A stretch of DNA of 24,136 nt, taken from IMG/VR virus record IMGVR_UViG_3300024300_000015, positions 1 through 24,136 of that record. The stretch is one strand, 5' to 3'. The stretch is from a virus. Each line of letters opens with the position of its first letter. Position 1 is the stretch's first letter. Positions 53-24,136 of the stretch are shown here, piece by piece. The notes under the pieces are model-generated. The model had not been told where the DNA came from. It saw nothing but the letters and a program-made list of their open reading frames with translations, and did no database searches. The position numbers and the translations under genes were made by a program.

Positions 53-559
53 ATGATCGAAGTCAAGATCGACATCGCCCAACTCCAGGCCGCTTTGACG
101 GAATTGCAAGGCAAGCTGGGTAACCCGCGGCCGGCGCTCAAGGAGATCGGCGAGGATCTGGTCGAATCCACGAAACAACGCTTCCCCGCCGGCATCGGGC
201 CGGATGGGAAGCCGTGGGCGCCCAACCGGCCCGCCACGCTGGCCAAGTACACGCACCGGGTCAAGGGCACGATGACCAAGGACCGCAAGCGGCTGTCCAA
301 GAAGGGCGAACGCCGCTGGGACAGCAAGCAGCCCCTGGTCGACCAGGGCACGCTCGGCGAACAAATCCATTACCGGATCGTCGGCCATGACACCCTCATC
401 GTCGGCAGCGGCGAGGAATACGCAGCGATGCAGCAGTTCGGCGGCACGAAGGCGGAGTTCCCAAACCTCTGGGGCGACATCCCCCCGCGCCCGTTCCTCG
501 GCCTCTCGATCGAGGACGAGATCATGATCCGCCAGACGCTGGAGTCGTGGCTACAGTAG
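53..559 (+). CDS. Phage virion morphogenesis protein, Mu gpG-like
   Basis: The 168-residue product looks like the phage virion morphogenesis family (Mu gpG type), a tail-completion or head-tail joining protein. Visible hallmarks are the short N-terminal amphipathic helix (IDIAQLQAALTELQ), a central segment with RFPAGIGPDGKPWAP, a basic stretch rich in K and R, then a C-terminal part with GSGEEYAAMQQFGG and PPRPFLGLS. Those two blocks are the parts of the family I recognise best. The length is normal for the family, so the gene appears intact. The ATG at 53 follows only a weak purine stretch. Its neighbours are other phage morphogenesis genes. The assignment comes from pattern memory, not from a search. 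Confidence 0.85.
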   Translation: MIEVKIDIAQLQAALTELQGKLGNPRPALKEIGEDLVESTKQRFPAGIGPDGKPWAPNRPATLAKYTHRVKGTMTKDRKRLSKKGERRWDSKQPLVDQGTLGEQIHYRIVGHDTLIVGSGEEYAAMQQFGGTKAEFPNLWGDIPPRPFLGLSIEDEIMIRQTLESWLQ

Positions 560-1270: not shown

Positions 1271-1565
1271 ATGTCTGAAATTAAGGTTGGAATCAAGATC
1301 GAAGCTGATGGTAGCAAAGGTCAGGCGGTGCTCACCACCCTGGAAGGTTCGCTGCGGCAAGTGGGCGGCTCGGCACGGCGGGTCACCCAGGACATTGGCG
1401 CCCTGCATGCGGGCTGGGCCAGGCTCAATGATCAGTTTTCCCGCCAGGCGGCCGCCAAGGCGTGGACCGATCAACTCAGCCAGGCCAGCGCCTGAAGCAA
1501 TCGATCGACACGACGACCCAGGCGGTCCAGCTGCAGGAACAAAGCCTACAAAGTTGGTTGAGTTT
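1271..1565 (+). pseudogene. Phage tail tape-measure protein, N-terminal fragment
   Basis: An ATG at 1271 follows ACGGAG at 1258-1263, a good ribosome-binding site. The product begins MSEIKVGIKIEADGSKG and continues with LRQVGGSARRVTQDIG, the typical start of tail tape-measure proteins, which set tail length and usually run to many hundreds of residues. The first frame ends at a TGA at 1493-1495. The coding pattern then continues in another frame (LKQSIDTTTQAVQLQEQSLQS), so there is a frameshift near 1480-1495. It stops at the first CRISPR repeat at 1566. Only about 95 codons remain, so the gene is broken twice, once by the frameshift and once by the array junction. Confidence 0.65.
1534..1565. 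other. Putative outermost spacer shared with the tape-measure gene
   Basis: The 32 bases directly left of the first repeat are exactly one spacer length. They also continue the tape-measure reading frame (codons for QEQSLQSWLS). No repeat precedes them. By analogy with the right-hand junction, I infer that they are both a CRISPR spacer and its protospacer in the phage gene. The PAM cannot be seen here because the array follows. The prediction is that the intact phage gene reads CTT from position 1566. Confidence 0.4.
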
Positions 1566-4500
1566 CGGTTCATCCCCACGGGCGTGGGGAACGGCGATTG
1601 CAGAAACTCCGTGGCTGAAATGGAGGCGGTTCATCCCCACGGGCGTGGGGAACGGCGGCATTTCAGCTCATTATTACGGATGCCGCCGGTTCATCCCCAC
1701 GGGCGTGGGGAACGGTATAAGACCTGGCGCTCGACCGACGGATCGTACGGTTCATCCCCACGGGCGTGGGGAACGGAGGGAGATGTTCCCCTTGCGCTGG
1801 CCGCCCAGCGGTTCATTCCCACGGGCGTGGGGAACGGGCGTGGGGAACGGATAACCATCGCCGACTGGATATCGGCTATCGCCGGTTCATCCCCACGGGC
1901 GTGGGGAACGGTGCATATCATCGCGGCGGCGGTGCAGTTCCGCCGGTTCATCCCCACGGGCGTGGGGAACGGATGCTCGATGCCGCCATCAATGGCGACT
2001 GCGCCGGTTCATCCCCACGGGCGTGGGGAACGGGAGGACCTGCTGGCTGTCGATGGCGCCGCAACCGGTTCATCCCCACGGGCGTGGGGAACGGGGCCGA
2101 GGTGCAATTCCTTACCGCCATCGATGGGGTTCATCCCCACGGGCGTGGGGAACGGGGTAACCATCAGGGTGAAGGCCGAACCGGTGACGGTTCATCCCCA
2201 CGGGCGTGGGGAACGGGGTGAACCAGAATGATCAAGCCGTCATCCGCGCGGTTCATCCCCACGGGCGTGGGGAACGGGTTGAACCAATGCATCCAGTTCA
2301 GGGCTAGTTCGGTTCATCCCCACGGGCGTGGGGAACGGGGAGGGCGATTGATCATGACCGACAACATCATCGGTTCATCCCCACGGGCGTGGGGAACGGT
2401 ACTGTTCCCACAGCACGGGGTTGATTTTGGCCGGTTCATCCCCACGGGCGTGGGGAACGGAGCCCCAGCATCAGCGCCGGGTCCAATTTGTACGGTTCAT
2501 CCCCACGGGCGTGGGGAACGGCCCCATACGCACCGGGCCGCCTATACCCGCGCCGGTTCATCCCCACGGGCGTGGGGAACGGCTTGACGGGGGGTGCGTC
2601 CGCCTCGGAGAAGGCGGTTCATCCCCACGGGCGTGGGGAACGGGTTCGCCGGAATGACCCCTGGCGGCGCGGCTACGGTTCATCCCCACGGGCGTGGGGA
2701 ACGGTGGGAAGTGTTCGAGCGGTTGGAAGATTGCTACGGTTCATCCCCACGGGCGTGGGGAACGGGGGCCATGGATTGAGACCGACCCACACCCTGCTGG
2801 TTCATCCCCACGGGCGTGGGGAACGGAGGACGGCCAGCGCCACCAGGACATAGGTACGCGGTTCATCCCCACGGGCGTGGGGAACGGGGATAAATGGCTA
2901 TCGCGGTCATGGCGCATGGCGGTTCATCCCCACGGGCGTGGGGAACGGCAGCCAGGCCGGCGGCTGGTATTCCCGCATCTCCGGTTCATCCCCACGGGCG
3001 TGGGGAACGGGGCTGCCCGCCATCCGGAGCCGGCGCGGACAGCGGTTCATCCCCACGGGCGTGGGGAACGGGCCCTCATGGATTCCTCAAGACCAGACTG
3101 AATCGGTTCATCCCCACGGGCGTGGGGAACGGTGCTGTGAATTCAACTTACGGATTGCCTCGATCGGTTCATCCCCACGGGCGTGGGGAACGGGCGACTG
3201 CCGCGGCCGTAACCGGTAGGGAGGTCGGTTCATCCCCACGGGCGTGGGGAACGGAAATGCCCGACCAATTTCGGGTGGCGCCTAATCGGTTCATCCCCAC
3301 GGGCGTGGGGAACGGTGCTTGACCAGAAAGGCCGCTACACACAGCACCGGTTCATCCCCACGGGCGTGGGGAACGGCTGCCCAAACACACGGCGGTGATT
3401 TCGAGGTACGGTTCATCCCCACGGGCGTGGGGAACGGATGACGCCAACGGCCCCGGCAGGTGATCGAACCGGTTCATCCCCACGGGCGTGGGGAACTGCT
3501 GGGTGAAATTGGCGGTGTAGCGGGCAACGCCGGTTCATCCCCACGGGCGTGGGGAACGGCCGGGCAGGATGTTACCCAGTTGGATGGCCTGCGGTTCATC
3601 CCCACGGGCGTGGGGAACGGTATCGCATTCGTGCGGTCAGGGACCTACAGGGCGGTTCATCCCCACGGGCGTGGGGAACGGTTGACGGCGGCCTTGGCCT
3701 GCTGCTTCTGGAACGGTTCATCCCCACGGGCGTGGGGAACGGTCTGGCGCCCTCCACATGCCCATCTCCATCACCGGTTCATCCCCACGGGCGTGGGGAA
3801 CGGTGTTCGGCGTCCTGCTCGGCGAAGCTCTTGCCCGGTTCATCCCCACGGGCGTGGGGAACGGGGTTATGCGTTCGATACCACCTATACCCCGATCGGT
3901 TCATCCCCACGGGCGTGGGGAACGGCGCCATCGCGTAATCCACCCGGAGGTTCGTGCCGGTTCATCCCCACGGGCGTGGGGAACGGGCGGCGGAGTAGGC
4001 CCGGTCGACCGTGGCGATCGGTTCATCCCCACGGGCGTGGGGAACGGGTACCGTCGCCGTTGAACAGGCAGGAGTCCTCCGGTTCATCCCCACGGGCGTG
4101 GGGAACGGGGCTCTGCAAAAAGCGGCTTTGCCATCAATAGTGGTTCATCCCCACGGGCGTGGGGAACGGAGCTCGTATCGCGACAAGCGGCGTTGGATAT
4201 ACGGTTCATCCCCACGGGCGTGGGGAACGGAATCTGGGAGTTCGCGATGCGCTCAAAAAAGGCGGTTCATCCCCACGGGCGTGGGGAACGGGTTGCATTC
4301 AAGGGTATTTGCAGGGTCAGTCCCGGTTCATCCCCACGGGCGTGGGGAACGGTCGGGGGCCGGCGCCGTCAGGGGCTCGCCGATCGGTTCATCCCCACGG
4401 GCGTGGGGAACGGGTTTTATTGATTGGAGAGACTAGAACATGGCGCGGTTCATCCCCACGGGCGTGGGGAACGGGGTCTACAGCCGATGATTCGGGATGA

Positions 4501-4719
4501 TTTAAGCCGGTTCATCCCCACGGGCGTGGGGAACGGGAGCAGCGAAAGTTTGTAGCCGTAGGGCACGACGGTTCATCCCCACGGGCGTGGGGAACGGTCG
4601 GCCCAGAATTGAGATATCTGCTCCTGCTGCGGTTCATCCCCACGGGCGTGGGGAACGGAACTCTAGGGTGGGCACCACCAGCAGGACGTCCGGTTCATCC
4701 CCACGGGCGTGGGGAACGG
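1566..4719 (-). CRISPR. Type I-E CRISPR array, 52 repeats and 51 spacers
   Basis: A 29-base repeat begins CGGTTCATCCCC and ends GGGGAACGG, with an internal palindrome around ACGGGCGT. It occurs 52 times with a 61-base period (spacers mostly 32, some 31 or 33). Repeats start at 1566, 1627, 1687 and so on to 4691. The repeat is of the type I-E (CRISPR2) class. The Escherichia coli repeat read in crRNA direction ends AUAAACCG; here the minus strand ends ATGAACCG, so transcription is expected on the minus strand with the leader to the right. The first plus-strand base varies (G at 2127, T at 2798 and 4141, otherwise C), as expected for the PAM-derived last base. The repeat at 1809 has an ATTCCC variant and a 13-base tandem duplication after it, and the repeat at 3470 ends AACTG. 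No cas gene and no AT-rich leader is present. Confidence 0.98.
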
Positions 4720-4754
4720 CTGGTATCCAGGGACCAGGAAAGCAAGGCCAGCTT
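4720..4754 (-). other. Putative terminal spacer/protospacer with AAG PAM
   Basis: The 32 bases after the last repeat (4720-4751) are in frame with the portal gene and show no break from the following codons. The next three plus-strand bases are CTT, so the minus strand reads 5'-AAG followed by the protospacer. AAG is the canonical PAM of type I-E systems, and the strand agrees with the crRNA direction inferred from the repeat. I infer that this stretch is both the next spacer of the array and its target in the portal gene. Confidence 0.55.
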
Positions 4755-6195
4755 CGAGCGGTTTGGCGTGGACGTGTCGGATATCCATTTTTCCAAGTGG
4801 ATGACGTTCCTGACCTCCATCATCTGCGCCATTTGGGGCTTCAGCCCGGAAGAGCTAAATTTCGAATCCTTCACCTCCGGCCGGTCTCCGCTGGCGGGGT
4901 CCGATACGTCGGAAAAGCTGGCGGACGCCAAGGAAAAAGGGCTCAAACCGATTCTGTATTACTACGAATCTCTATTCACCGATTACGTCCTGAGCGCGTT
5001 CGATGCCAGGTATGTCTTTCGCTGGACGGGCTTGGACGACGACGACCGCGTCGAAAAGCAAGAGCGCCAAAAGCTGGTGCTGACCGTCAACGAAATGCGC
5101 GCCATGGATAACCTGGAGGCGTTGGACGGGCCGTTGGGCGATGCGCCGCTCAATCCGTCGCTGATGTCGGTCTACCTGCAGACTCTTCAGGCGCCGCAAG
5201 GACAGCAGGATTTCGGTCAGGTGGGCGACGGCGGCGCGGATAGACAGGACGAGAGCCGAGAGAAGCCCGACTTCGGGCAAGGCGGCGCGGATTTCGGTAA
5301 GGACGACGAAGCTCAGCCGGATTTCGGAGACGGCGAGACGGATTTCGGGAAAAGCCTGGGTAGCGGCAACCCTTATCACGATGATCGCGGGCGGTTTACG
5401 TCCATTTTCTCTCGCGTTCGACAGGCGGACGATCGGCGCGGCAAAACGCACGCAGTAGCGGCGTTAACGCCAGAGTACGTTGAACGCATGTCTAAAGCCG
5501 TGGCGGATTTGCTTGTGACTACGCCGGCTGTCGTGTTGCCTACAGGCGCGGATAAAGCGAACAGGAAAAATGCACTGCAAGCCGCGCGGACCTTAGCCGG
5601 AAAGATGCGGGATCATGGACTGGCGATTCGCAATCGCGGTAGCGGAGCGCTTATCGAGCTATCTCGAACCGGGTTGCAACATGCCGGTTCCATGTCGGGG
5701 GATATTCGTTGCGCCTTGCTTATGTATAAGCTTCCAACGGCTTTGGCGCGGGCTGTGTATTTCAAATCGGAAAAGCCCGATCCGAGGAAAACGGGTAATC
5801 AGCGCTTGGCGGCTTATCACAAGTTTGCTGTTCCAATCCGTCATCATGGCGCATTGGCTTTGGCCATCATGCATGTTGAGGAAGACAACAGGGGGCATTT
5901 CTACTATGACGCCACACTGACGCCCGAGATAAAAAGGCTCGGTGGTAAACCTCCAGGTGCTGACGCCATGATGGACATGGCCGGAAGCCTGGCCCTAGAC
6001 CGAGCCTATTACGAGCATATCAAACGCTATCTCGAAGTCAAGCCGGGTCTGGGAGAGATCCACACGTTCTTCCGTAAATCGTTCATGCCGGATGCGGCGC
6101 ATGGCTTGGGCAAAGCGCTCCCGGTCGAGAACGAGTCTCCCACGCTGGATTTTGGTACGGTGCGCGACATCCCCCACGTGTATACCTTTGAGTAA
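4720..6195 (+). CDS. Phage portal protein, 5'-truncated, with C-terminal polyvalent-type domain
   Basis: An open frame of 491 codons begins at the array junction without its own start. Codons 1-150 carry portal hallmarks: FERFGVDVSDIHFSKWMTFL, GFSPEELNFESFTSG, SGRSPLAGSDTSEKLADAK and YVFRWTGL. The N-terminal half of the portal, probably a few hundred residues, is missing. Codons about 160-215 form an acidic linker with five DFG repeats. NPYHDDRGRFTS follows, a connector common in phage polyvalent proteins. The last 250 residues contain RLAAYHKFAVPIRHHGALALAIMHVEEDNRGHFYYDATL. This resembles large polyvalent protein-associated (LPD3-like) or BECR-nuclease-like domains attached to phage structural proteins. 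Portals form the dodecameric DNA gate of the capsid. The C-terminal assignment is tentative. Confidence 0.75.
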   Translation: MVSRDQESKASFERFGVDVSDIHFSKWMTFLTSIICAIWGFSPEELNFESFTSGRSPLAGSDTSEKLADAKEKGLKPILYYYESLFTDYVLSAFDARYVFRWTGLDDDDRVEKQERQKLVLTVNEMRAMDNLEALDGPLGDAPLNPSLMSVYLQTLQAPQGQQDFGQVGDGGADRQDESREKPDFGQGGADFGKDDEAQPDFGDGETDFGKSLGSGNPYHDDRGRFTSIFSRVRQADDRRGKTHAVAALTPEYVERMSKAVADLLVTTPAVVLPTGADKANRKNALQAARTLAGKMRDHGLAIRNRGSGALIELSRTGLQHAGSMSGDIRCALLMYKLPTALARAVYFKSEKPDPRKTGNQRLAAYHKFAVPIRHHGALALAIMHVEEDNRGHFYYDATLTPEIKRLGGKPPGADAMMDMAGSLALDRAYYEHIKRYLEVKPGLGEIHTFFRKSFMPDAAHGLGKALPVENESPTLDFGTVRDIPHVYTFE

Positions 6196-7107: not shown

Positions 7108-7374
7108 ATGGCACGACAAATAACCTATTCAGGAACCTATTCCGGCAGCAAGATTATTACAGTATCCCGCATTGATCCGCCCTTCACGATCACGCTTTCT
7201 CCGGGCTCCGGGAATGTATCCCGCTGCGAAATCAAATCAGGCGGCAAATGGTTCGCTTGGCCGGCGGGCGATGTGTCTGAGCCAATGCGCGATGTGCAGT
7301 ACGGGCACATCGAAGAGGTGAAATTTACCCGCGTCAGCGGGTCATCCGACGATACCTATGAGGTGGTGGCATGA
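7108..7374 (+). CDS. Small beta-rich protein upstream of the DGR target
   Basis: The 88-residue product starts at an ATG preceded by GAGGAAATAAT, a strong ribosome-binding site. The chain is rich in Ser, Thr and aromatic residues, with alternating strands (ITYSGTYSGSKIITVSR, FTITLSPGSG) and no predicted helix. That suggests a virion surface protein or a chaperone for a fibre. Its stop overlaps the start of the DGR target by four bases (ATGA), so the two are almost certainly translated together. I do not recognise a family. AT-rich DNA before it (7055-7100) could hold a promoter, but I see no convincing pair of boxes. Confidence 0.65.
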   Translation: MARQITYSGTYSGSKIITVSRIDPPFTITLSPGSGNVSRCEIKSGGKWFAWPAGDVSEPMRDVQYGHIEEVKFTRVSGSSDDTYEVVA

Positions 7375-8357
7375 GCGGCTGGGGGAGCGAGCGCATTGCT
7401 CGCCGAGCATTCGCAAAATCCAATTCCTTGACGCCTGCCTGGATTGCTACGGGCAACTGGGCGGCGGCGGTCGGGCAGGAGTTCTACGCTGAGGTCGGAG
7501 GGAGGAATCTGATTGTCCCCGCCAATCGCGACATCGTCTTGCCGGTATCTCCGACGCCAGGGGCGGACTACGCGATCTGGTTAAGCCCGAACGGGTTTGT
7601 GCAGGCCTCGTCCAATTTCGTGACGCCGCCGAATACATCGGTGGACCGAAAGATCGGCGGATTTCATTACGCGCCTGGCGGCAATGCACCGGGGCGGGCG
7701 GGTGGCAATACCACGCCCGCCATCAATCCATACTCGATGTGGGACCTCACTTTCCGGCCCGCCTGTCCGGACCCGCGCGGAATGACGCTGGTGGCGGATA
7801 GTTTTTGGTGCGATATCTATATGCTCGGCGTGAATTACCTCGTCAACGGTACGAGTGCCTACAACGTCACAATCGCGGATGGTGCGTCTCCGCCAAAAAT
7901 AAGCACGAAGTTTGGTGGCGACGGCACGTCCGTTTATGCGGACGGCTCCTGGCACAACATGGGGGAAGCGCTCAAGCACTGGGGTAAACGGCATCCGACC
8001 TATGCGGAGGCCGAGGCAGCATTTTATGGTACGACTGAGGCGTCGTCTCTTGGATCGGATCCAGGATCCACTGTCCTCAACGCGCCATACACTTCTAAAT
8101 GGGGTGTGATCCAATCGACTGGCGTTATGTGGATATGGGGGTCCGATTTCGGCGGTGGTGCTGCTGGCGCGTCATGGTCTGCGAATACGGGCGGCCGAGG
8201 CAGCACATATCAGGCCGCGAACGCCGCGTTGCTGGCGGGCAACTGGATCCACGGGGGCCTCTCCGGGTCCGGCTGCTCGATCTGGAACCACTCGCCCGCG
8301 TACTGGGACAGCCACATCGGGGCGCGGGGCGTCTGTGACCACATGAGACGTGATTGA
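7371..8357 (+). CDS. DGR target protein, receptor-binding (C-type lectin fold)
   Basis: This 328-residue protein ends in a classic DGR variable region: AALLAGNWIHGG, SGSGCSIWNHSP and IGARGVCDHMRRD. The preceding part (LKHWGKRHPTYAEAEAAFYGTTEASS, GVMWIWGSDFGGGA, STYQAANAALLAG) matches phage tropism determinants with a C-type lectin or formylglycine-generating-enzyme-like fold. The N-terminal 140 residues probably attach it to the tail fibre. Six residues sit on template adenines: I293, H294, Y311, D313, S314 and H315. All replace Asn codons of the template. The likely role is host recognition, diversified by mutagenic retrohoming. The gene is intact and coupled to the upstream ORF. Confidence 0.9.
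   Translation: MSGWGSERIARRAFAKSNSLTPAWIATGNWAAAVGQEFYAEVGGRNLIVPANRDIVLPVSPTPGADYAIWLSPNGFVQASSNFVTPPNTSVDRKIGGFHYAPGGNAPGRAGGNTTPAINPYSMWDLTFRPACPDPRGMTLVADSFWCDIYMLGVNYLVNGTSAYNVTIADGASPPKISTKFGGDGTSVYADGSWHNMGEALKHWGKRHPTYAEAEAAFYGTTEASSLGSDPGSTVLNAPYTSKWGVIQSTGVMWIWGSDFGGGAAGASWSANTGGRGSTYQAANAALLAGNWIHGGLSGSGCSIWNHSPAYWDSHIGARGVCDHMRRD
8221..8344 (+). repeat. DGR variable repeat (VR)
   Basis: This 124-base segment aligns without gaps to the template repeat at 8786-8909. There are 12 differences. Six are at template adenines (VR positions 28, 30, 81, 87, 91, 93), changing AAC codons to ATC, CAC, TAC, GAC, AGC and CAC. Six are at other bases (positions 11, 21, 22, 69, 85, 120). Six of 21 template adenines have changed, against six of 103 other bases. 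The 3' part (ATCGGGGCGCGGGGCGTC) is identical and fits the initiation-of-mutagenic-homing region. Confidence 0.92.
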
Positions 8358-8377
8358 GCTGGGCGATAGCCCAGCTC
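8356..8377 (+). promoter_or_regulatory. Hairpin/cruciform downstream of VR
   Basis: A perfect inverted repeat has 9-base arms GAGCTGGGC (8356-8364) and GCCCAGCTC (8369-8377) around the loop GATA. It starts at the target gene's stop codon, 11 bases after the VR. In the Bordetella phage DGR, a similar short-stem, four-base-loop structure just after the VR promotes retrohoming. The run of seven T residues at 8385-8391 begins seven bases after the arm, so a weak terminator is the alternative. Confidence 0.75.
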
Positions 8378-8405
8378 GACGCGATTTTTTTGGATGGAAG
8401 GCTAG

Positions 8406-8786
8406 ATGAAACCCGTCGCGGACGCTGTTCAGTCCTATGACCAAATGGCCATCGTCGAAAAATACGAGGCCGTCATCGCCTATCTTTACCCGATCGCGCA
8501 GTCGATGCCTCGGAAGCACGGTATGGCGAGGGACATGTTTTTGCGATGCTTGCTCGGACAGCCCGATCTCTTTTATCAGGCCGGAAAATCCAATCAGGTA
8601 TCGAGGATTTATGCCGCAGATGCAGGCCTTGCGAATCTGCGGTTCTGGTTGCGGTTTTTGGTCAGGCCAAGTCTCCGGGGCATAACTCCCCACCAGCACA
8701 AAGTGGCTTTAATCATGCTTTCGGAGGTGGGGGCTATGGTAGGTGCGTGGCTGGCCAAACAGCGCAAGGGGCAAACCGGGCAATGA
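8406..8786 (+). CDS. avd: DGR accessory variability determinant (Avd)
   Basis: The 126-residue all-helical protein matches the length and pattern of Avd, the small basic four-helix-bundle protein that forms a barrel-shaped pentamer and binds the DGR reverse transcriptase and template RNA. Features seen are YEAVIAYLYPIAQSMPRKHG near the N-terminus, RDMFLRCLLG, LANLRFWLRFLV, and a basic tail ending KQRKGQTGQ. It lies between the target gene and the template repeat, as in the Bordetella phage cassette. GGAAGG just upstream of the ATG can serve as ribosome-binding site. The stop codon overlaps the first base of the template repeat. Confidence 0.85.
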   Translation: MKPVADAVQSYDQMAIVEKYEAVIAYLYPIAQSMPRKHGMARDMFLRCLLGQPDLFYQAGKSNQVSRIYAADAGLANLRFWLRFLVRPSLRGITPHQHKVALIMLSEVGAMVGAWLAKQRKGQTGQ

Positions 8787-8909
8787 CGCCGCGTTTCTGG
8801 CGGGCGCCTGGAACAACGGGGGCCTCTCCGGGTCCGGCTGCTCGATCTGGAACTACTCGCCCGCGAACTCGAACAACAACATCGGGGCGCGGGGCGTCTG
8901 TGACGACAT
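8786..8909 (+). repeat. DGR template repeat (TR)
   Basis: This non-coding 124-base copy of the VR would encode AGAWNNGG, SIWNYSP and NSNNNIGARGVCDD. Its AAC codons sit at the variable positions, the hallmark of a template, because adenines in the first two codon positions randomise the residue. It lies between avd and the reverse transcriptase remnant. The 3' end differs from the VR at position 120 (G instead of C), as expected for the unequal homing sites of VR and TR. An open frame reads through it but is not a gene. Confidence 0.92.
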
Positions 8910-8927
8910 CGCTTCACCGTTCTGCCG

Positions 8928-9377
8928 GTGTCACGGCTCGGCAGGCAGGCCATCTTCGCCAATGTTTACGGTGGCGCTTGCGATCGGTTTCTGCATATTG
9001 CCCTGGGTGAGCGGCATTGGGCACGCTACATGGATGACGTCGTTGTGCTGGGCCATGACCCGGTTCATCTCCGAGCCGTATTCGAGCGGTTGCGCGACTT
9101 CTCTGCAGAGGCCCTAGCGCTTTCCGTCAGCAAATGGCAGGTGGCGCCAGTGAACCACGGCATCAACTTCTTGGGGTATCGGATCTGGCCTCGCCACAAA
9201 CTGCTCCGGAAGGATTCCGTAATCCGCGCCAAGCGCAGGGTCGCTACTCTCCTCAAGCGTAACGACATCGCGTCGCTCGACCGGTTCATCGCATCATGGT
9301 CAGGCCATGCTCGATGGGCCGACACCCATCACTTGTTCGAATCATTGGAGATCTGCTATGCCAAAAACCAGTATTAA
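8928..9377 (+). pseudogene. DGR reverse transcriptase, C-terminal remnant
   Basis: The frame opens at a TGA at 8901 inside the TR and continues with LPVSRLGRQAIFANVYGG, then HWARYMDDVVVLG, then NFLGYRIWPRHKLLRKD and a helical thumb. These correspond to reverse transcriptase motif 4, the catalytic YMDD box of motif 5 and motifs 6-7. DGR reverse transcriptases are usually 300-400 residues; here about 150 remain. The fingers and motif 3, with its catalytic Asp, are missing. The loss begins within about 15 bases of the TR end, so a deletion (or a collapse during assembly) removed the gene's 5' half. An active enzyme is not expected. The last 20 bases overlap the next gene. Confidence 0.85.
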
Positions 9378-14477: not shown

Positions 14478-17400
14478 ATGTCCAAACGCTCTCGCAAATT
14501 TCTGTACGTTCGCCTCGACACGCTGGCCAAGGGCGGCCAAGGCTCGGGGAATTTTCATCATAAAGTCCGGAAGGGGAAACGCGGCGGGAGCGAGCCGGAT
14601 GATAATGCTCGGCTGATCGAAAAGACGTTAAAGACACACGCCTTACCGTGGCGGTATCTTGAGTTCTCCGAGGCGGCCTGGAGACAAGAGTTTCCCGATG
14701 GCGAAGTAAAAACGCCGATAGGCGTGGTCAAGCTGGGTGACCGTCAGCACGAGAAATTGCGCGATCTTGGAAGGAGCCGGTATTTCGGACTGATACGGCC
14801 CACGCTAGAAAATCCAACCTATGCGATTGCGACGCTGGAAACCGATGAACGGATGGCTGACCGAAAGTCGGCGGGGGAAGCGACTGGCCGCGCCTCAAAA
14901 CTGGAATTTATTCGGGCATTTATCAAGCCGGACGGGGAGCATCAAGGCTTCCTGTGCGTCACCATAGGGCGGGATGCCCTGGAAATTTCAGTCAGTTCAG
15001 GGCCACGGCGAGTGGGCGAATTAGCGAAGAAGGTAAAGAGGGGCGCTATCCTCTTGAAACTGCCTAGACAAGATCAGCCGCAAACCTTGGGAGTGGAGGA
15101 TAGCTACGCGAAGGCGGCTACGTATTCACAGTTTACCGATTCGCTTTTGAAAAGCAACCCGGACGCCCTGGCGCTGGATATTCTCGCCAAGGCCGAGCAA
15201 CTGGGCCTGTTCGACATTCCCGTGCCGGTCAAAACGTTCGTCCGCAAGGATGGCACAGTGGTGCCGGGACACGTGGCCACGCGCAAAAAGCGCATCGCGC
15301 CCAAGGGCAAACAACCGGATTTGTTCGGCGACCCCCAGCCGCGGGGCGAAGCCGTCAAGCTGGGCCGACTCGGGCACTTCATCGAGCGACACGGCGGATA
15401 TGCGCGGTTGCAGGCCACCTTGAACGGTTTCTCCAGCGCGCAACGCGACACGTTGCTGGACGCCATGGCCAAGCTGTCCGGCAAACCCCACGCGGAAATC
15501 GTTGACCTTCTGGCCAACGGCGCCAAGCATGAAATGCCGACCGCCGCGCATGACAACCAGGGCCGCGATTTGGACGCCACGCGGCGCGCCGTTTACGCCG
15601 AGAAAGAACGTCACGACCAGGGTCGCGAAGCCAGCCATCGCGCCTTCGAGCGCGAGATCGAGGCAACGCCGCTGGCGGACTGGACCGAGTTCGAGGGTAT
15701 CCAGGTGTTGCGCTCCGGAAATTCCCGGTATGTGGGCGTGCCGGCCAGGGATAAACCGACGGCCGCCACGTTCCATATTATCGATACCGAACGGCGCGAA
15801 CCCGTTGTTCAGGTCAAGCGCGATGAGGTCCGTTCCTGGCTCTGGCGGGCGGCGAAAGCCGAACGAGAAGAGCATGAATTTCTAAATGACGAAAAGCCAA
15901 AAGAACCCTTGCGCTTTGACTATCCGTCGCTGGTCGATGATGAACAGCGCAAACGCTTGGAATCGTGGCATGCGGCCGGCGCTGACCCCGAAACTAGACC
16001 GGCTGAACGCGGGATTTACTTGCCTGGCATGTCGGTCGGTAAGCTGGAACGACTGTTACAGAAAGATTCACTGACCGCGCAGGACAAGGAATCACTCAAG
16101 GATTACAAATACCTGTTACTGGCACAGCCGAATGATGCGGCTGAAAAAGGCTTCATGGTGCATGTCCAGGGTGACAAGGGCGGGTTCCTCGCGCCGAAAA
16201 ACAAGTTTTGGCTGACGAACATTGATCATGCGCTTGAGGGTAAGGCCAAGACCGAACCCGAGGGCGGGCGCTGGCATCGGGTGACGCCGGAAAAAAAGCC
16301 CGAATTTCAAGCTACTCACGAACTACCTGATGGCACTCAAGTTGTGGCCAATACCGACGAGCCGGGCGTCTGGGTGGATGCGCGCGGCGACGAGTACGAG
16401 AGCGACGAGGCGTATCCGCTCCATGCCCCACGAGAAGGCGACCGCAACGCCGAAGGCTTGGTGTTCCATAATGGGCGCTGGCATCGGGAGGATGGGGTAG
16501 AGCCGCAAGACCGCGAGTCTTCCGAGCCCAACGCCTTGGGTACGGCCGCCGCATTCTCGGACGACGACCCCAATTCGCCAGACTACCGCTACCGGGATAC
16601 CGGGTACGTTGCCGGGTCGCGGAAGGAGCAGGCTGCGATTTTCATTCGCGCCGAGGCGCGCAAGGGCGCGAGATTGCGCGCCACGGATATTGACTGGCAG
16701 GCCATCGAAACCAATCCGCGCGAGGCGAAGGAACTCATTATCAAGTCCAACCTGTTCGGCGCGGTCGATTGGGACGCGCTCAAGGCCGGCGGCATGGAGC
16801 CTGGCGCTGGCTTCCTGGTGGATCGCGTCTATGCCAGCATCGCCACGGAACCCGCCGAGGATAGTCCGCAAGCGCGCCACGATTACGCGATTGGACTGGA
16901 ATCGCTGCGGGATCGGCTGGAACGATGCAAGACTCCGGACGAGGTGACGACAGTCCTGGACGATATCCGGTCGGAGTATGACGGCTATCTGTTCAACGCG
17001 GATGAGCAGGCCAGACATGACCGCGCGTCGGCCATTGCCAAACGGCTTTCCGATCGGTATTGGACGCTCAGGAAAGAGCGGGAAACCATTATTAAGGCGG
17101 CTGTCGATCTAAGGGACCAGATAGACCGACTGAAGCGGGACCAGGACCAGCGCATCGATCGCAAGCGGAAGCCCGATCCCAATATCGAACAGCGCATCGC
17201 CGAACTCAAGCCGGAGCATGATGCCGCGCTGCAAGCAATCAACGATTGGGATGACGCGCATCCGGAAATGCAAGAGGCGTGGGGGAGCGCTGCCGTGGGT
17301 AGCAGCTTGCGCTCCGAGGTCAATGCGGCCTGGGAGGCCGCATCGGATATCAAGGCTGCATCGTTGGCGCGCAATCGGTCGGAAAACCCCTTGCACCGCG

Positions 17401-18692
17401 CTTGGGCCTTGATGGGGCCAAAATTCGCGAGCATCATGAGATGGCGTCGCCACGACGGGTCGGTTACGTTCCAGGGCCACGTGACGGCGGCGAAAACCGG
17501 CAAGATCAAGGACTGGTCGTGGGCGGAAAAAGACCGCGCCACGATGCCCAGGATGGGCCGGCAAAAGGTCCGGTTCCAGCTTCGGGTGGTCGAAAAATTT
17601 ACCCGGGTCGGCGGCCGGCCGGTGGCGGCGGATTCTACCGCCATACTGAAAAATCAATTCAATCTGCGCGAGGTCCAGTCGGGCAACTGGGTGTTGTCCG
17701 ATCCCGAGTCGGCGGCGTTTCATGTCCAGCGTTCCGCCGAAGCCCTAAGCGATTTGGCGGACCTGATGCAAATATCCGATGACGCCGTATCGGTCAACGG
17801 TCGGGTGGCGCTGGCCTTTGGCGCGCGCGGCAGGGGCAGCGCCGGATTTGGCGGTGCGGCCCGAGCGCATTACGAACCGGTGCAGCGCGTCATCAATATC
17901 ACCAAAATGGGCGGCGGCGGCTGTCTCGCGCACGAGCTGTTTCATGCGATAGACAACCTGACGAGCGAATGCGAGACCGGGAAAGCGTCCGGAGCGGATG
18001 ATTTCATCACGGAAAACCCGGACTTGTTGCCGGATGGCAGGCTCAAGGATGCCGTGCTGGGGTTCCGCCAAGCGATGCTTGCCGGACAGCATCGCCTGTA
18101 TGTGAAAATCAAATACAGCGAGAAGGATGTCAGGATTGCCCGCTACAACCTGGATCGGGACAAGCCATCGCCCATCGCCGCCATGATCAAGTCCGCGCCG
18201 GATTTGGAAACCGCGTTGCGGCAATTGGACGATCATTACTTCGCCAGGGGCGGATGGGAAGGACCCCACCGAAAACGTACCGCCAAGAACCGTGAAGGCT
18301 GGCGCAAGATTGCGGCGGCCTGGCATGATGGCATGCAGGTATCGGGCGGAGTGGCCAAGGTCAGGGCGGGGCCGCCCATGTCGTCCTATGCCTACGAGGC
18401 TCAGTTGATCGATGAGGGCGACTACGGAAAGTATTGGTCGTCCACGCATGAACTCGCGTCCCGGGCGTTTCAGGCATGGTGCGAGGATCGGCTGTCCGAA
18501 TTGGGGCGCAGGAACGATTACTTGTCCGCCAATGCCGACAACAAATACTACAAAACCCCGGCCTTCGGGGAATGCAAGCCCTTCCCCGAAGGCGACGAGC
18601 GGATGCGCATCAATGCCGCGATAGACCGTCTGGTGGAAGCCATTCGCGATAGCGGTTCGCTGTATAAGGCGTTCTTTGACTTAGCCCGTTGA
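14478..18692 (+). CDS. Large polyvalent phage protein: nuclease-like N-terminus and LPD1-like zincin motif
   Basis: This 1404-residue modular protein is probably packaged and injected with phage DNA. Residues 20-38 contain GGQGSGNFHHKVRKGKRGGS, a connector seen in polyvalent proteins. Residues about 45-185 (TPIGVVKLGDRQ, RSRYFGLIRPTLENP) resemble phage BECR-fold nuclease domains (barnase/EndoU/colicin E5-D/RelE-like). A second connector (FVRKDGTVVPGHVATRKKR) is near 255. A charged coiled coil spans about 860-925. Residues about 990-1200 fit the LPD1 polyvalent domain: FNLREVQSGNWVLSDPES, VNGRVALAFGARGRG, then HELFH (H1152, E1153, H1156), a zinc-metallopeptidase-like HExxH. The end (YWSSTHELASRAFQAW, PFPEGDERMRIN) is the usual LPD1 tail. 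No frameshift is seen. The catalytic roles are inferred from family resemblance only. Confidence 0.8.
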   Translation: MSKRSRKFLYVRLDTLAKGGQGSGNFHHKVRKGKRGGSEPDDNARLIEKTLKTHALPWRYLEFSEAAWRQEFPDGEVKTPIGVVKLGDRQHEKLRDLGRSRYFGLIRPTLENPTYAIATLETDERMADRKSAGEATGRASKLEFIRAFIKPDGEHQGFLCVTIGRDALEISVSSGPRRVGELAKKVKRGAILLKLPRQDQPQTLGVEDSYAKAATYSQFTDSLLKSNPDALALDILAKAEQLGLFDIPVPVKTFVRKDGTVVPGHVATRKKRIAPKGKQPDLFGDPQPRGEAVKLGRLGHFIERHGGYARLQATLNGFSSAQRDTLLDAMAKLSGKPHAEIVDLLANGAKHEMPTAAHDNQGRDLDATRRAVYAEKERHDQGREASHRAFEREIEATPLADWTEFEGIQVLRSGNSRYVGVPARDKPTAATFHIIDTERREPVVQVKRDEVRSWLWRAAKAEREEHEFLNDEKPKEPLRFDYPSLVDDEQRKRLESWHAAGADPETRPAERGIYLPGMSVGKLERLLQKDSLTAQDKESLKDYKYLLLAQPNDAAEKGFMVHVQGDKGGFLAPKNKFWLTNIDHALEGKAKTEPEGGRWHRVTPEKKPEFQATHELPDGTQVVANTDEPGVWVDARGDEYESDEAYPLHAPREGDRNAEGLVFHNGRWHREDGVEPQDRESSEPNALGTAAAFSDDDPNSPDYRYRDTGYVAGSRKEQAAIFIRAEARKGARLRATDIDWQAIETNPREAKELIIKSNLFGAVDWDALKAGGMEPGAGFLVDRVYASIATEPAEDSPQARHDYAIGLESLRDRLERCKTPDEVTTVLDDIRSEYDGYLFNADEQARHDRASAIAKRLSDRYWTLRKERETIIKAAVDLRDQIDRLKRDQDQRIDRKRKPDPNIEQRIAELKPEHDAALQAINDWDDAHPEMQEAWGSAAVGSSLRSEVNAAWEAASDIKAASLARNRSENPLHRAWALMGPKFASIMRWRRHDGSVTFQGHVTAAKTGKIKDWSWAEKDRATMPRMGRQKVRFQLRVVEKFTRVGGRPVAADSTAILKNQFNLREVQSGNWVLSDPESAAFHVQRSAEALSDLADLMQISDDAVSVNGRVALAFGARGRGSAGFGGAARAHYEPVQRVINITKMGGGGCLAHELFHAIDNLTSECETGKASGADDFITENPDLLPDGRLKDAVLGFRQAMLAGQHRLYVKIKYSEKDVRIARYNLDRDKPSPIAAMIKSAPDLETALRQLDDHYFARGGWEGPHRKRTAKNREGWRKIAAAWHDGMQVSGGVAKVRAGPPMSSYAYEAQLIDEGDYGKYWSSTHELASRAFQAWCEDRLSELGRRNDYLSANADNKYYKTPAFGECKPFPEGDERMRINAAIDRLVEAIRDSGSLYKAFFDLAR

Positions 18693-18701
18693 CGGTATAA
18701 T
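18687..18701 (+). promoter_or_regulatory. Promoter-like CGTTGAC-NN-TATAAT before the Rha gene
   Basis: GTTGAC, GG, then a perfect TATAAT overlaps the stop of the giant gene. The two-base spacing rules out a classical -35/-10 pair but equals the spacing in the TCGTGAC family. The -10 box should be functional. Confidence 0.6.
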
Positions 18702-18708
18702 AGGCGCA

Positions 18709-18737
18709 CTGCCCACTAGCTACGAACTGGTGGGCAG
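18709..18737 (+). promoter_or_regulatory. Leader hairpin, copy 2
   Basis: An 11-base stem (CTGCCCACTAG with CTGGTGGGCAG, one G-U) carries the loop CTACGAA. It lies about seven bases after TATAAT, so it should form at the 5' end of the Rha mRNA. Compared with copy 1, the arms have changed in a pairing-preserving way. Confidence 0.75.
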
Positions 18738-18774
18738 CACTTCACCGATCGCAACCTAAACAGGAGGCTACGCG

Positions 18775-19467
18775 ATGCCCAAACAGATTACCCAAAATCC
18801 GTCTCTTGCCGCAACCGGCCATGATCTGGTAGAGGTGCGAAAGGCGCAACCGTTTACTACAACTTTAGCTGTATCTGCTGGCACTGGGCTGGCACACCCC
18901 GCTATCATGCAACTCATTAGAAAGTACATTGCAGACTTTCAAGAGTTTGGCTTACTGACATTTCAAATTGCACCAAGAAAGGGCAATAGGCATGGCGGTG
19001 GCAATGTTGAGTACGCTGAACTCAATGAAGATCAGGCTACCTACCTCATCACGCTCTTCCGCAACAATGACGTGGTGCGCAGGTTCAAGATTCGCCTGGT
19101 TAAAGCCTTTCGCGCGGCAATCACTGAGATTGAGCGGCTTACTCACCAAAAGCAAGACCCACAATGGCAACTCATCCGCGATGAAACGAAGGTAGGCTTC
19201 AAATGGATGAGCGACACGCTCAAGGAAACGCGGGAATCGGTCGGCAAGGCTACCATGCCGCATCATTTCCAGAATGAAGCGCGGATGATCAACGCGGTGC
19301 TAGCCGGCAAGCATGGCAAACTGGATCGCAACACGCTGAGCGCGTCAGACTTGGTGCTGATGGCTGAACTGCAAAGACTCAATGCCGTGCTGATCGGGCA
19401 AAACATGCCGTACAAGGACCGTAAAGCCGTTCTCATGGATCGGGCTGTCAAGAAGCTCGCCGCTTAG
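18775..19467 (+). CDS. Rha-family phage regulatory protein
   Basis: The 230-residue product starts at an ATG eight bases after AGGAG. Residues about 20-125 fit the Rha domain: HPAIMQLIRKYIADFQEFGLL, then FQIAPRKGNRHGGGNVEYAELNEDQATYLITLFRNNDVVRRFKIRLVKAFR, which matches the family's pattern of a DNA-binding winged helix with the conserved FK..L..AF helix. The C-terminal half contains a basic, helical segment (HHFQNEARMINAVLAGKHGK) and probably a second DNA-binding or oligomerisation unit. Rha proteins are regulators found in lambdoid and other temperate phages. Here it sits between two giant structural genes with its own promoter-like box and leader hairpin. Confidence 0.75.
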   Translation: MPKQITQNPSLAATGHDLVEVRKAQPFTTTLAVSAGTGLAHPAIMQLIRKYIADFQEFGLLTFQIAPRKGNRHGGGNVEYAELNEDQATYLITLFRNNDVVRRFKIRLVKAFRAAITEIERLTHQKQDPQWQLIRDETKVGFKWMSDTLKETRESVGKATMPHHFQNEARMINAVLAGKHGKLDRNTLSASDLVLMAELQRLNAVLIGQNMPYKDRKAVLMDRAVKKLAA

Positions 19468-19475
19468 ACTAAATG

Positions 19476-19490
19476 TCGTGACTTCAGGAT
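19476..19490 (+). promoter_or_regulatory. TCGTGAC-NN-YANNNT motif (CAGGAT)
   Basis: TCGTGAC, TT, then CAGGAT is followed by AGGCGG. It lies 35 bases before the start of the helicase gene and shares GTCGTGACTTCA with the copy at 14436. Confidence 0.55.
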
Positions 19491-19491
19491 A

Positions 19492-19521
19492 GGCGGCGGT
19501 ACTTCAACTCTTGCCGTCGCC
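19492..19521 (+). promoter_or_regulatory. Hairpin before the start codon at 19526
   Basis: GGCGGCGGTA and TGCCGTCGCC pair over 10 bases (two G-U) around a 10-base loop, ending four bases before the ATG. No ribosome-binding site is visible. Confidence 0.6.
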
Positions 19522-19525
19522 TGTC

Positions 19526-22500
19526 ATGAACCATTTTCCGGACTTCTCTTCTCATACCCGGCTACTCAAGGCCGAGCGGACCGAACGCCATCCCAGCGCA
19601 GCCCAGATCAAGGCGGGCAATTACACCAAGCGCAAGGTGCCTTGGCGCGGCATGACCATCAGCGTCGAGAACGAGGCGGGCAGCACCCGATCCGGCACGG
19701 ACCCCGGCGGCAAGCGCTGGAGCATCAGGATGAAGTTCGCCTATGGCTACCTCAAGCTCACGGAAGGCGTGGACGGGGATCATGTAGACGTGTACCTGGG
19801 GCCTGACCTGGATACCGCGCCCAATGTCTACGTGGTGCATCAACGCAAGGTCAACGACTGGAAAGCCTATGACGAGGATAAGGCCATGTTGGGATTCACG
19901 TCCCGGCGCGCGGCCGTCAAGGCATTCCTGGCCAACTACACCGACCGGCGGTTTCTCGGGCCGGTCACGGTCATGCCGGTCGATGAATTCATCGAAAAGG
20001 CCAGGGCGACATTCAACCAGCCAAGGATGATCAAGACCTTTGTCGGTCACAGTGGCCGGCCAGGACTGATAGGCTGGTCAGTGAAGCGCATGCCGGCGCG
20101 GGACGGAAGCGAGGGTATGTCAGTCCCTGATGACGCCCATATTCGCCAGGTCAACGCTACCGTCAATAGGCAAATCGAAGCCTGGGCCAACCGGTCATTA
20201 CCCACTAGCACGCTTTTGGATTTAGGGAGACCGTCCAGCATCCTGAGACGATTTGGCGTGCCGGATAAACCCATTCACTTAACGCAATCCGTTCTACGCA
20301 AGGCTACCGACAAAAAACATGGCCTGCATCCAACCGATCTCAAGGATCTAACACTGCACATTCAAGCGCCGTTGGCTGTATTCAAAAGCCGAAAAGGCAA
20401 GAATAGCCTGGTGGTCTTAACTGAAATCACGCATGAACAGGGCAATCTGATAGCCGCGCTGGACCTGAATGTTAAGCGCTTGGAATCAGATATTCACGAT
20501 ATTCGTAGCGTTCATCCAAAAGCCGATGCAAAGGTAGGCTATTGGCTGGCGGATGGATTGCTGCTGGGTTACGCAAAAGACAATGGCCGCCAGTGGCTTG
20601 AGTCCTCAGCCCCGTCCAATTCGGGGCAGTCCCAAGCCATGGCAGCCATCGTAAATGCGATTGTTTATGACAGAAGCCATCTTGTCAATGTCCAGGATAT
20701 ACGGAAAAGCATCGTCCTGACATTCCCATCCGGGAGTGTCTATTGGTTGTTCCAGCACCAATACCGCTGGCAAGTCAGCGCGCTCTTGCTCAAGGCGCTG
20801 GGACCGGGCGAGCGCTGGATAACAGTATTCCCTAACGGAAAAGAAAATAAAGGCGTGCCCGTACTGGTCCGCGAAACGCACGGCGGCTCCGGCGTCTATC
20901 ACGTCATAGGCGGTGCCGGCGGCAAGCTCAACTATCTCAAGATGCGCGGCATAAAGCCCGAGGCCGACTATAAGGCCCAAGCGGCGGAACGCGCGGCGGT
21001 CCAGCGTAAGGCGCGACAGGAACAAGCCAGGATGGACCGCGAATCGGGCGTGGCCGACATTAAAAAGACGCAACGGGATGCTATCGTCGCCAAGCAGCGC
21101 GAGGCCGAGCGGCGATTCATCGAGGAGGTGGCCAAGCGACAAGGCTGGAAAGAGGAAGATATCGCCTTTGACGAAAAGGCCCACGCCAAGCTCTCGGATG
21201 CGGCCAAGCGCAAAGCCTATGCCAAGCATCACGGTGCCCTGCTGCGCAAGGCCAATGAAGCCATCGATCTACAGCGGCAACGGCTGGTCGAAGACCCGGA
21301 CTTCCGCGCCGAGGCGGGGCTTGCCAATATGCCGGCGCAAAGCGCGGTCAGTCACGAGCTATCGGTAGCCGATATCGATCCGGTCACGCCGGGCAAGGTC
21401 ACGCTGGGGTTCTCCCATGCGTTCGGCGAGCGGGCGCAACAGGCCGGCCTCTCGAAAGAGGCTATCCAGGCCGAGGCCGAGGCGACGCGAGACGCGCGGC
21501 TGACGCCGGACGAACGCGAGGCCCGCATCCGTCGCGGCGAAACCAGGCAAGCGGTCAAGGAAGAATTGGAACGCCTCCGCGAGCCGTCCAAGGCTGACGC
21601 GCTCAAGCCGAAACTGGCGGAAGCTCGGGAAGCGGTTGAGATGGTCAAACTGCAAAAGCAGTTGCAGTCCATCCAAAAGCAAGCACGGGAAGCGCGGGCG
21701 GATGTGGATAAGGACCCGTCCGGCAAGATTAAGACCTACAACATCACTGTGGGCGGGTCCGATCCCGACCTGGATGAAAAAGTCCGCGAGCAGGTTGAAA
21801 ACGACATTAGAACGGTCCAAACCCGAACCTTCCTGTCCGCCATACGCGATACGGCGGGCCAGGATTACGAGCAATCCCTGAATGCGGCCATCGGCGCCGG
21901 CGCCTTCGATTCCGTCAATGCGCTGGCCATCGCGGCGGGCGGCGCGGCGCTGGTGGATCGGTCGGTCGTCGACGTGCTGGGGCCGGCCGGCGCGGCGCGG
22001 GTGCTGGCGCGGCGGCTACATGCCGATTTGGACAAGGGCACGGTGGACACGCTGACCGAGGATTTTGGCGACTTTCACGCCAATCATTACATGGCCACGT
22101 CGAAGGCGGCTCTGGAGCAAGCCGCCGAACTGCGCGAGACAGCCAGGCAACTCGAACTGGATGAGGCTCATGGCGCTCATGACCTGGTGACCGCCAAGGC
22201 CATTACTGAACGCAAGCTGGAAGCATTGACGGAAGCCCATCGCCTGCTCGCAACGGCGCTCGGGGAAATGGAGACCAACGCGGCGCTGGTCGCCGCGCTC
22301 AAGTCCGGCCGCGCCAATAAGCCGCTGGAAGTCGCCCTGGGCGGCGTCTCGCCGGAAGACGCCATCAGACAGGCGCGCGCCATTGGGCTCCCGCGCGTCG
22401 ACTACCGGCTGGACCAGGTGGCGGGCAATGAAATCCTGACCGTGACCCCGGAAGGGCTGGACCGTCTGGCCAGGCCCATCGATGTGGCCGATTTGCGGCG

Positions 22501-24136
22501 GCGGCGGCGTACCTTGGACATCATGGAAGGCCGGGAGGATGAGGAGAACTGGCTGCCTAAAGGCGTGGCCAATCGTCCCGATCTCGCCATGCCGCCCGCC
22601 GATCCGGGCGTGGCGTCCGTGCTGGCCAAGCCGTTCGAACCGGGTGCAGACCTGGCCCGATCCCTGCGGGACTACATCGGCGGGCGCATGGCGGACGGAG
22701 ACGCCGCAAGCGACATTCTGGCGGACATTCAAGGCAAGCCGTTCTTCGACAAGGCGGGCGATGAACGCTTCGGTGACTACCTGTCGGCGCTGAACGAGGT
22801 GGCTCCGCTCAAGGACGCCAAGGGCCGGCCGAGACCCATCGAAACCATGCGGCCGGAATTCGAGGCCATGGCGGATGAGTTTGTCGCCAAGCATTACGGG
22901 GCCGACCGCACGCCGCTACATCGGCAAACCTTCGACCCAAACGACGAGAAGGCGGCGGAATCGCTCTATCGCACCCTGGCGGAAGTGCCCGAGGGCATTG
23001 CCGCGTTCACGCCGATCGGCGAATTGACGCATGAAGATCGGCGCGCCTTGCGGGAATTCTTCCATGCCCATGTGGCGCGGGAAGACGAGGACGCGGCGGC
23101 CATTCGGCATCGTCTGGAAGCCATGAGCCGGCATGAGCCGGAACGCGAGTTTACCGACATGTTTGGCGAAACCGTGGAAAACCCGGAATGGCGCGAATGG
23201 AAGAACGAGCGTGATGGACTGGCGGAACAGGCCAATAAAGCCTCGCTGACCTGGGATAAGTACACGTCCATTCTGCGCGGCCATGCCAATGCCTATGCCA
23301 CGCTGCAAGACATGATCCGATCGCGGGTCAACCAGGGGTTTACCGAACATTACAACCGGGCGCATCCCGATAAGCCGCTCAAGCGCGGGCGGACTCCGGT
23401 GCGCAACTCCCTGGCCCACGCGGACGCGATCGATCCGGCATTGCGCGAACAGCGTCTCGATGAGCAGCGGCAATTCAATGCCCGGCTGCAAGCGCGCGAC
23501 CGCGGCCAGTTCGCGTCCGATGACGTGATCGGCAAGCAACAGTCCGCGCGAGCCGCCGAGGAGGCCGACAAGCAAGCGCAATTCAACCTGTTTGGCGACG
23601 ATGAACCCGCCGACAAAACCGCAACCCCACTCAAGGCCGACGAGCGCTACACGCTAGGCCATGCCGCCGAAAACCAGATTGCCCGCATGGTCCCGATGAT
23701 GGCGCGCAACTTCAAGCCGGGACAGCCGTTCAAGATGTGGCAACCGTCGATGAACGGCAAAGGCGTGGCGCGGCAGCGGGCCATCAAGCTGGTGGAGGCC
23801 AATAAGCGGTTTGCCCTTGGATTGGGTCCGGGCAGCGGCAAGACGCTGATTCAACTCGGGTCAATCAGTCACCTGTTGTCAAAAGGAAAGATCAATAGGG
23901 CGCTTGTGTTGGTCCCGTCCATCGTGCAATCGGAATTCCGCGCCGAAGCCGCCCGCTATCTCGATCCCAAGGCCAATGGCGGAAAAGGTTTCAACTATCA
24001 CATCGAACCCGGCGCATCGCGGGCGGAACGCATCGCGGCCTACAAAGACCCGCAACATCATTTCGCCGTCATGACTCATTCGGCGTTCCGTGACGACATG
24101 ATCCACATGGGCGCGCAACAGGCCGGCATCGAACCA
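19526..24136 (+). CDS. Giant polyvalent protein with pyrophosphatase-like, MuF C-terminal-like and SF2 helicase modules (3' incomplete)
   Basis: An uninterrupted frame of 1537 codons runs to the window end without a stop. Residues about 15-165 carry a pyrophosphatase-like module of phage polyvalent proteins: NYTKRKVPWRGMTISVENEAGS, EGVDGDHVDVYLGPD (Asp83, Asp85, Asp88 recall the family I pyrophosphatase signature) and MLGFTSRRAAVKAFLANY. Residues about 173-370 resemble the MuF C-terminal BECR-like domain (LHIQAPLAVFKSRKGK, GNLIAALDLNV, GLLLGYAKDNG). RWITVFPNGKENKGVPVLV and YHVIGGAGGKLNYLKMRGIK (about 430-465) are a further polyvalent-protein signature. Long coiled coils follow (470-700). GPGSGKT at 1434-1440 is a Walker A box, followed by RALVLVP, which fits superfamily 2 helicase motifs I and Ia. 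It is probably a DdrB-like, DarB-type injected anti-restriction or helicase protein. Confidence 0.8.
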   Translation, partial: MNHFPDFSSHTRLLKAERTERHPSAAQIKAGNYTKRKVPWRGMTISVENEAGSTRSGTDPGGKRWSIRMKFAYGYLKLTEGVDGDHVDVYLGPDLDTAPNVYVVHQRKVNDWKAYDEDKAMLGFTSRRAAVKAFLANYTDRRFLGPVTVMPVDEFIEKARATFNQPRMIKTFVGHSGRPGLIGWSVKRMPARDGSEGMSVPDDAHIRQVNATVNRQIEAWANRSLPTSTLLDLGRPSSILRRFGVPDKPIHLTQSVLRKATDKKHGLHPTDLKDLTLHIQAPLAVFKSRKGKNSLVVLTEITHEQGNLIAALDLNVKRLESDIHDIRSVHPKADAKVGYWLADGLLLGYAKDNGRQWLESSAPSNSGQSQAMAAIVNAIVYDRSHLVNVQDIRKSIVLTFPSGSVYWLFQHQYRWQVSALLLKALGPGERWITVFPNGKENKGVPVLVRETHGGSGVYHVIGGAGGKLNYLKMRGIKPEADYKAQAAERAAVQRKARQEQARMDRESGVADIKKTQRDAIVAKQREAERRFIEEVAKRQGWKEEDIAFDEKAHAKLSDAAKRKAYAKHHGALLRKANEAIDLQRQRLVEDPDFRAEAGLANMPAQSAVSHELSVADIDPVTPGKVTLGFSHAFGERAQQAGLSKEAIQAEAEATRDARLTPDEREARIRRGETRQAVKEELERLREPSKADALKPKLAEAREAVEMVKLQKQLQSIQKQAREARADVDKDPSGKIKTYNITVGGSDPDLDEKVREQVENDIRTVQTRTFLSAIRDTAGQDYEQSLNAAIGAGAFDSVNALAIAAGGAALVDRSVVDVLGPAGAARVLARRLHADLDKGTVDTLTEDFGDFHANHYMATSKAALEQAAELRETARQLELDEAHGAHDLVTAKAITERKLEALTEAHRLLATALGEMETNAALVAALKSGRANKPLEVALGGVSPEDAIRQARAIGLPRVDYRLDQVAGNEILTVTPEGLDRLARPIDVADLRRRRRTLDIMEGREDEENWLPKGVANRPDLAMPPADPGVASVLAKPFEPGADLARSLRDYIGGRMADGDAASDILADIQGKPFFDKAGDERFGDYLSALNEVAPLKDAKGRPRPIETMRPEFEAMADEFVAKHYGADRTPLHRQTFDPNDEKAAESLYRTLAEVPEGIAAFTPIGELTHEDRRALREFFHAHVAREDEDAAAIRHRLEAMSRHEPEREFTDMFGETVENPEWREWKNERDGLAEQANKASLTWDKYTSILRGHANAYATLQDMIRSRVNQGFTEHYNRAHPDKPLKRGRTPVRNSLAHADAIDPALREQRLDEQRQFNARLQARDRGQFASDDVIGKQQSARAAEEADKQAQFNLFGDDEPADKTATPLKADERYTLGHAAENQIARMVPMMARNFKPGQPFKMWQPSMNGKGVARQRAIKLVEANKRFALGLGPGSGKTLIQLGSISHLLSKGKINRALVLVPSIVQSEFRAEAARYLDPKANGGKGFNYHIEPGASRAERIAAYKDPQHHFAVMTHSAFRDDMIHMGAQQAGIEP

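Follow-up and report, generated by a model that had tools for sequence, protein, structure and literature searches.

The window, here the whole analysed stretch of 24,136 bases, is an IMG/VR virus record of class linear in which a long CRISPR array is bordered on both sides by phage genes (Table 1). The repeat, CGGTTCATCCCCACGGGCGTGGGGAACGG on the plus strand, recurs with a period of 61 nt and leaves regular spacers of 32-33 nt. Its minus-strand reading, GTTCCCCACGCCCGTGGGGATGAACCG, is a type I-E repeat of 29 nt with the conserved stem and the AUGAACCG handle. A 27-mer of this repeat was also present in arrays of many gamma- and betaproteobacteria; the repeat does not single out one host, as it is common to many proteobacteria. 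In several of the repeat-bearing bacterial genomes similar AT-rich leader-like ends were located upstream of the first repeat in minus-strand orientation, which supports the minus strand as the crRNA direction. In the window, the place that corresponds to these ends, beside the first repeat as read in crRNA sense, holds portal coding sequence and no leader. No cas genes were recognised among the scanned proteins of the window, which is a fragment. The 51 complete spacers had no match within 8 mismatches in the rest of the window and no match among 50,697 phages. Near the leader-distal array end, at 1802-1850, one repeat is degenerate and contains a partial duplication within itself (GGGCGTGGGGAACGGGCGTGGGGAACGG).

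Table 1. Features of the window around the CRISPR array
Feature	Position	Strand	Remarks
Virion morphogenesis protein (gpG-like, PF05069)	53..556	+	E 1.2e-24; left-hand phage
Tail tape measure protein, N-terminus	1271..1565	+	frameshift near 1490; broken by the array
Possible second spacer/protospacer, tape-measure-like coding	1534..1565	-	32 nt, adjoins the first repeat; PAM hidden by the repeat
Type I-E-like CRISPR array	1566..4719	-	52 repeats of 29 nt (28 + PAM-derived base), spacers mostly 32 nt
Last repeat	4691..4719	-	leader-proximal side in crRNA sense
Putative spacer = protospacer	4720..4751	-	32 nt, spacer-positioned and portal coding
PAM position	4752..4754	-	CTT on plus = AAG on crRNA strand, canonical I-E PAM
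Phage portal, C-terminal part fused to LPD3 domain	4720..6192	+	N-terminal part and terminase missing

On the right side, the array passes directly into the portal gene. The initial annotation had described an unbroken portal frame without a leader at this place, and the open reading frame 4609-6195 is indeed open from the last repeats through the junction; from base 4720 on it encodes LVSRDQESKASFERFGVDV... The assignment of the 32 bases behind the last repeat to a portal gene was likewise borne out by the match to the PHROG portal family (E 4.5e-18), with the LPD3 domain fused behind. The portal query matched 619 phage records, and it was absent from the 11 repeat-bearing genomes examined. 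When the portal protein was searched directly against IMG/VR, no match was obtained; a degenerate DNA pattern retrieved one contig, L076, with a terminase followed by an intact portal of 844 aa that runs through the homologous site. Homologous portal genes without bases 4720-4751 had been regarded beforehand as an argument against a protospacer at this position. The comparison returned the opposite: 26 of the 32 nt were identical in L076, including a CTTCGA kept on the PAM side, and the alignments to the best portal matches, PHB04-like phages, started at query residue 1, which is base 4720. Ahead of base 4720, where the window has the repeat, a Pro-Val is conserved in L076 and in six aligned phage portals, thus the phage sequence starts exactly at the repeat/spacer border.

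The 32 nt of this stretch, CTGGTATCCAGGGACCAGGAAAGCAAGGCCAG, combine spacer length and a position at the repeat with a PAM on the right side and strand, and they are very probably spacer and protospacer at once. A copy flanked by two repeats was not found in the sequences retrieved. The initial annotation had presented these bases as a spacer of the array directed against the phage in the window; geometry, portal identity and the homology breakpoint agree with this claim, from which the spacer status is deduced. The 29th base of the repeat is variable (49 C, 2 T and 1 G on the plus strand), which fits a PAM-derived base, and the stretch common to array and phage therefore comprises at least 33 nt, 4720-4752. 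The about 33 shared bases through which the sequence had been proposed to pass from array to phage are thus confirmed as a minimum.

Phage coding sequence also passes into the array at its left edge (1565/1566), which the initial annotation did not mention. The N-terminus of the tape measure protein located there was confirmed by L095. The pattern of the left junction had no match in IMG/VR, thus the left PAM is unreadable. The PF05069 protein and the tape measure protein were absent from six complete genomes of PHB04-like and related phages and also from L076, which is itself only a fragment. The families on the left are hence missing from phages of the right-hand type, the best relatives of the two sides differ, and as judged from these comparisons the left and right flanks probably come from different phages. 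Thus, of the earlier proposal that the window names both an array and its prey, the prey on the portal side fits, but the left flank seems to stem from another, unrelated phage. Between the left-flank genes, at 572-601 and 1042-1118, palindromic elements of the GTAGGATGGGCAAAG...CTTTGCCCATCCTAC type were observed. The element at 1042-1118 matches several gammaproteobacterial genomes, so that the left flank may represent the remnant of a prophage in a chromosome.

The arrangement at the right junction recurs in other virus contigs. The window repeat was present in only three other IMG/VR contigs, and L067 was the sole one of these with more than one repeat copy. It ends in four repeats, the first of which is preceded by AAG and 32 nt inside another portal gene, and phage portals align through the last portal residue before the repeat. 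A survey with a degenerate I-E repeat pattern yielded 84 IMG/VR stretches and 67 non-redundant upstream ends, window and L067 included. In 20 of these 67 virus-contig ends (about 30 %), the first repeat was preceded by AAG at a distance of exactly 35 bases (-35), in support of the canonical PAM that the initial annotation had read from the CTT behind the 32 bases. From the other offsets a mean of 1.2 was expected (binomial p 5e-19); without the window and L067, 18 of 65 ends had the motif. Across all offsets up to 200, every other trinucleotide stayed below this count of 20, and 20,000 permutations gave at most 8. Among bacterial genomes with the window repeat, AAG at -35 was found in 1 of about 45 ends, a Nitrosomonas MAG in which the site lies beside a phage-type regulator in a prophage-like region. 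As control, AAG at -34, one base off, was counted in 1 and 0 of 360 genomes. For type I-F ends the signal was weaker than for I-E, with CC at -34 in 6 of 37 ends (p 0.005). In two type I-F contigs (L225, L227) and one of type I-E (L104), a 32-nt protospacer-like sequence flanked the repeat or array on either side; this looks as if a spacer-repeat unit had been recombined in.

We consider it likely that the contig is a chimera, in which a host I-E array is joined to a PHB04-like portal gene via a shared spacer/protospacer, with the assembler as the most likely agent and the left edge probably formed likewise. A host resembling the gamma- or betaproteobacteria would carry a spacer identical to 4720-4751, and the target of this spacer would be a PHB04-like phage in the same sample. 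The shared 33 to 34 bases, spacer plus PAM-derived base, would allow the contig to switch from the array into the portal gene; 33 of them are certain, and the 34th would be added if the phage has a G before CTG as in L076. At the left edge, a spacer against a second phage would have led into the tape measure gene seen there. The chimera is supported by the exact repeat/spacer border, the position and strand of the AAG, the breakpoint of the portal homology, the unlike left flank and the recurring signature. Since the genes at the two flanks are broken and stem from unrelated phages, a crossover by the assembler is the simplest agent. From this pattern we infer that the host has the 32 bases between two repeats, that the join is an in silico product and that the left edge arose in the same way. 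The geometry of AAG, 32 nt and repeat is by itself no proof of an assembler crossover, because four virus contigs (L068, L115, L121, L142) show the same geometry with apparently intact phage flanks.

These contigs belong to a larger group. The 20 cases with AAG and 32 nt comprised 11 solitary repeats and several mini-arrays; solitary or few I-E repeats exactly 32 nt after AAG were present in L068, L103, L107, L115, L121, L127, L135, L142 and L146. Judged from the gene context, many of the 20 cases sit between apparently complete genes, and the repeat often follows a stop codon by 0-21 nt (L068, L103, L107 family, L115, L121, L135). In L142 the repeat lies between terminase and portal, two genes that are adjacent or nearly so in relatives; L120, L155 and L171 may be rearranged. 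A simple spacer/protospacer crossover does not resume in the same phage at the adjoining base and does not explain the intergenic solitary cases, so that the virus-contig ends with this signature cannot be assembly errors throughout; these cases suggest a PAM-registered insertion of CRISPR repeats into phage DNA. Hypothetically, these insertions are linked to Cas1-Cas2, which measures this PAM distance. Alleles without the repeat that span the sites of the intergenic solitary repeats were found neither in phages nor in E. coli genomes and plasmids nor in the Nitrosomonas family.

The host adaptation machinery may take phage DNA as prespacer, cut 32 nt from the AAG and join a repeat to it. Solitary repeats and arrays 32 nt past an AAG would be the result, a source of solitary repeats in phages, and the junction in the window would be one such product; we regard this as doubtful. 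A real DNA join at this particular junction, either as a half-site integration by Cas1-Cas2 that kept the PAM-side phage tail or as a homologous recombination over the 33 bp of spacer and protospacer, seems unlikely. From the established biochemistry of Cas1-Cas2, a half-integrated prespacer with a still untrimmed PAM should show the order AAG-32-repeat on its leader side, and this is the order observed. The many virus contigs that combine AAG-32-repeat with complete-looking gene flanks indicate that some process acts in real DNA, and the mild enrichment of CC-32-repeat in type I-F ends and the protospacers duplicated on both sides in L225 and L227 point in the same direction. However, the join in the window breaks two essential phage genes and connects flanks that do not belong together, unlike the intergenic insertions, and contig-end cases with a long array are equally explained by assembly.

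That a chimera arose at the repeat border by chance or in the library, with a coincidental AAG, is quite unlikely. CTT accounts for 0.9 % of the trinucleotides in the right flank and for 2.5 % in the portal reading phase at this place, so a single 3-base match in the portal gene has a probability of 1-2.5 % and might occur by accident, but the border coincides exactly with the end of the repeat, the geometry recurs in L067, and 35 is the only offset with an enrichment of AAG. A phage-borne array inserted into a phage genome, in line with the viral class of the contig and with known phage-borne mini-arrays (PMC6858448; also the L107 family, Klebsiella phage KP13-16), is very improbable in view of the 52 repeats, the flanks of cut tape measure and portal fragments from different phage types and the lack of spacer-distal contiguity with the portal. 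Arrays in phages have a median of 6 repeats, against 41 on average in cellular arrays of class I (PMC7162821), thus an array of 52 repeats is typical of a host and not of a phage.

The array shares with E. coli-type I-E arrays the repeat class, the 29-nt repeats, the 32-nt spacers, the PAM-derived last base and the AAG 5' of the protospacer, but no cas genes were recognised among the scanned proteins of the window, no leader is present, and the last 'spacer' runs on as a phage gene. Two unrelated phage flanks, cut genes and a join in an expected shared stretch are features of chimeric metagenome contigs; here, however, the shared stretch is an immune record, so that host-prey information is carried along. 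Virus-borne mini-CRISPR arrays (PMC6858448) are likewise found on contigs of viral class. They are small and reside in intact viral genomes, whereas the array of the window is host-sized and is bordered on both sides by cut genes of unrelated phages. An unannotated I-E mini-array with its own leader-like sequence was noticed in the isolate Klebsiella phage KP13-16 (L230, 1422-1590). The solitary repeat units of phages (Racr, PMC10651486) have in common with the window that CRISPR repeats occur in viral contigs, and our survey recovers solitary repeats; they differ in being single and intergenic, whereas the window has an array of 52 repeats and a join inside a gene. The Racr paper speculates on function and on integration into arrays, and keyword searches of it gave no mention of PAM-registered positions of solitary units. 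The open-access literature, subscription papers being outside the scope, yielded no description of exactly this chimera and none of solitary repeats in PAM register.

If the window is a chimera, the sequence of AAG, spacer length and repeat offers a cheap flag for false viral contigs that requires the sequence only. Since the immune record itself is the place of the misjoin, this flag also tells which host and prey belong together; for the window, the prey of the array would thereby be identified. If the intergenic cases are real insertions, the solitary repeats of phages (RNA anti-CRISPRs) would gain a testable mechanism of origin tied to spacer acquisition.

The portion of the window to the right of the portal gene holds further phage features. 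A diversity-generating retroelement is present at 7371-9374, with an Mtd-like target gene carrying a variable repeat. Its template repeat lies near 8800-8920 and is directly followed by a reverse transcriptase without the N-terminal part, possibly another misjoin or a real deletion. The region 14478-24136 encodes polyvalent proteins of very large size, in which LPD1, inorganic pyrophosphatase-like, MuF_C and helicase domains occur, as is typical of large injected phage proteins.
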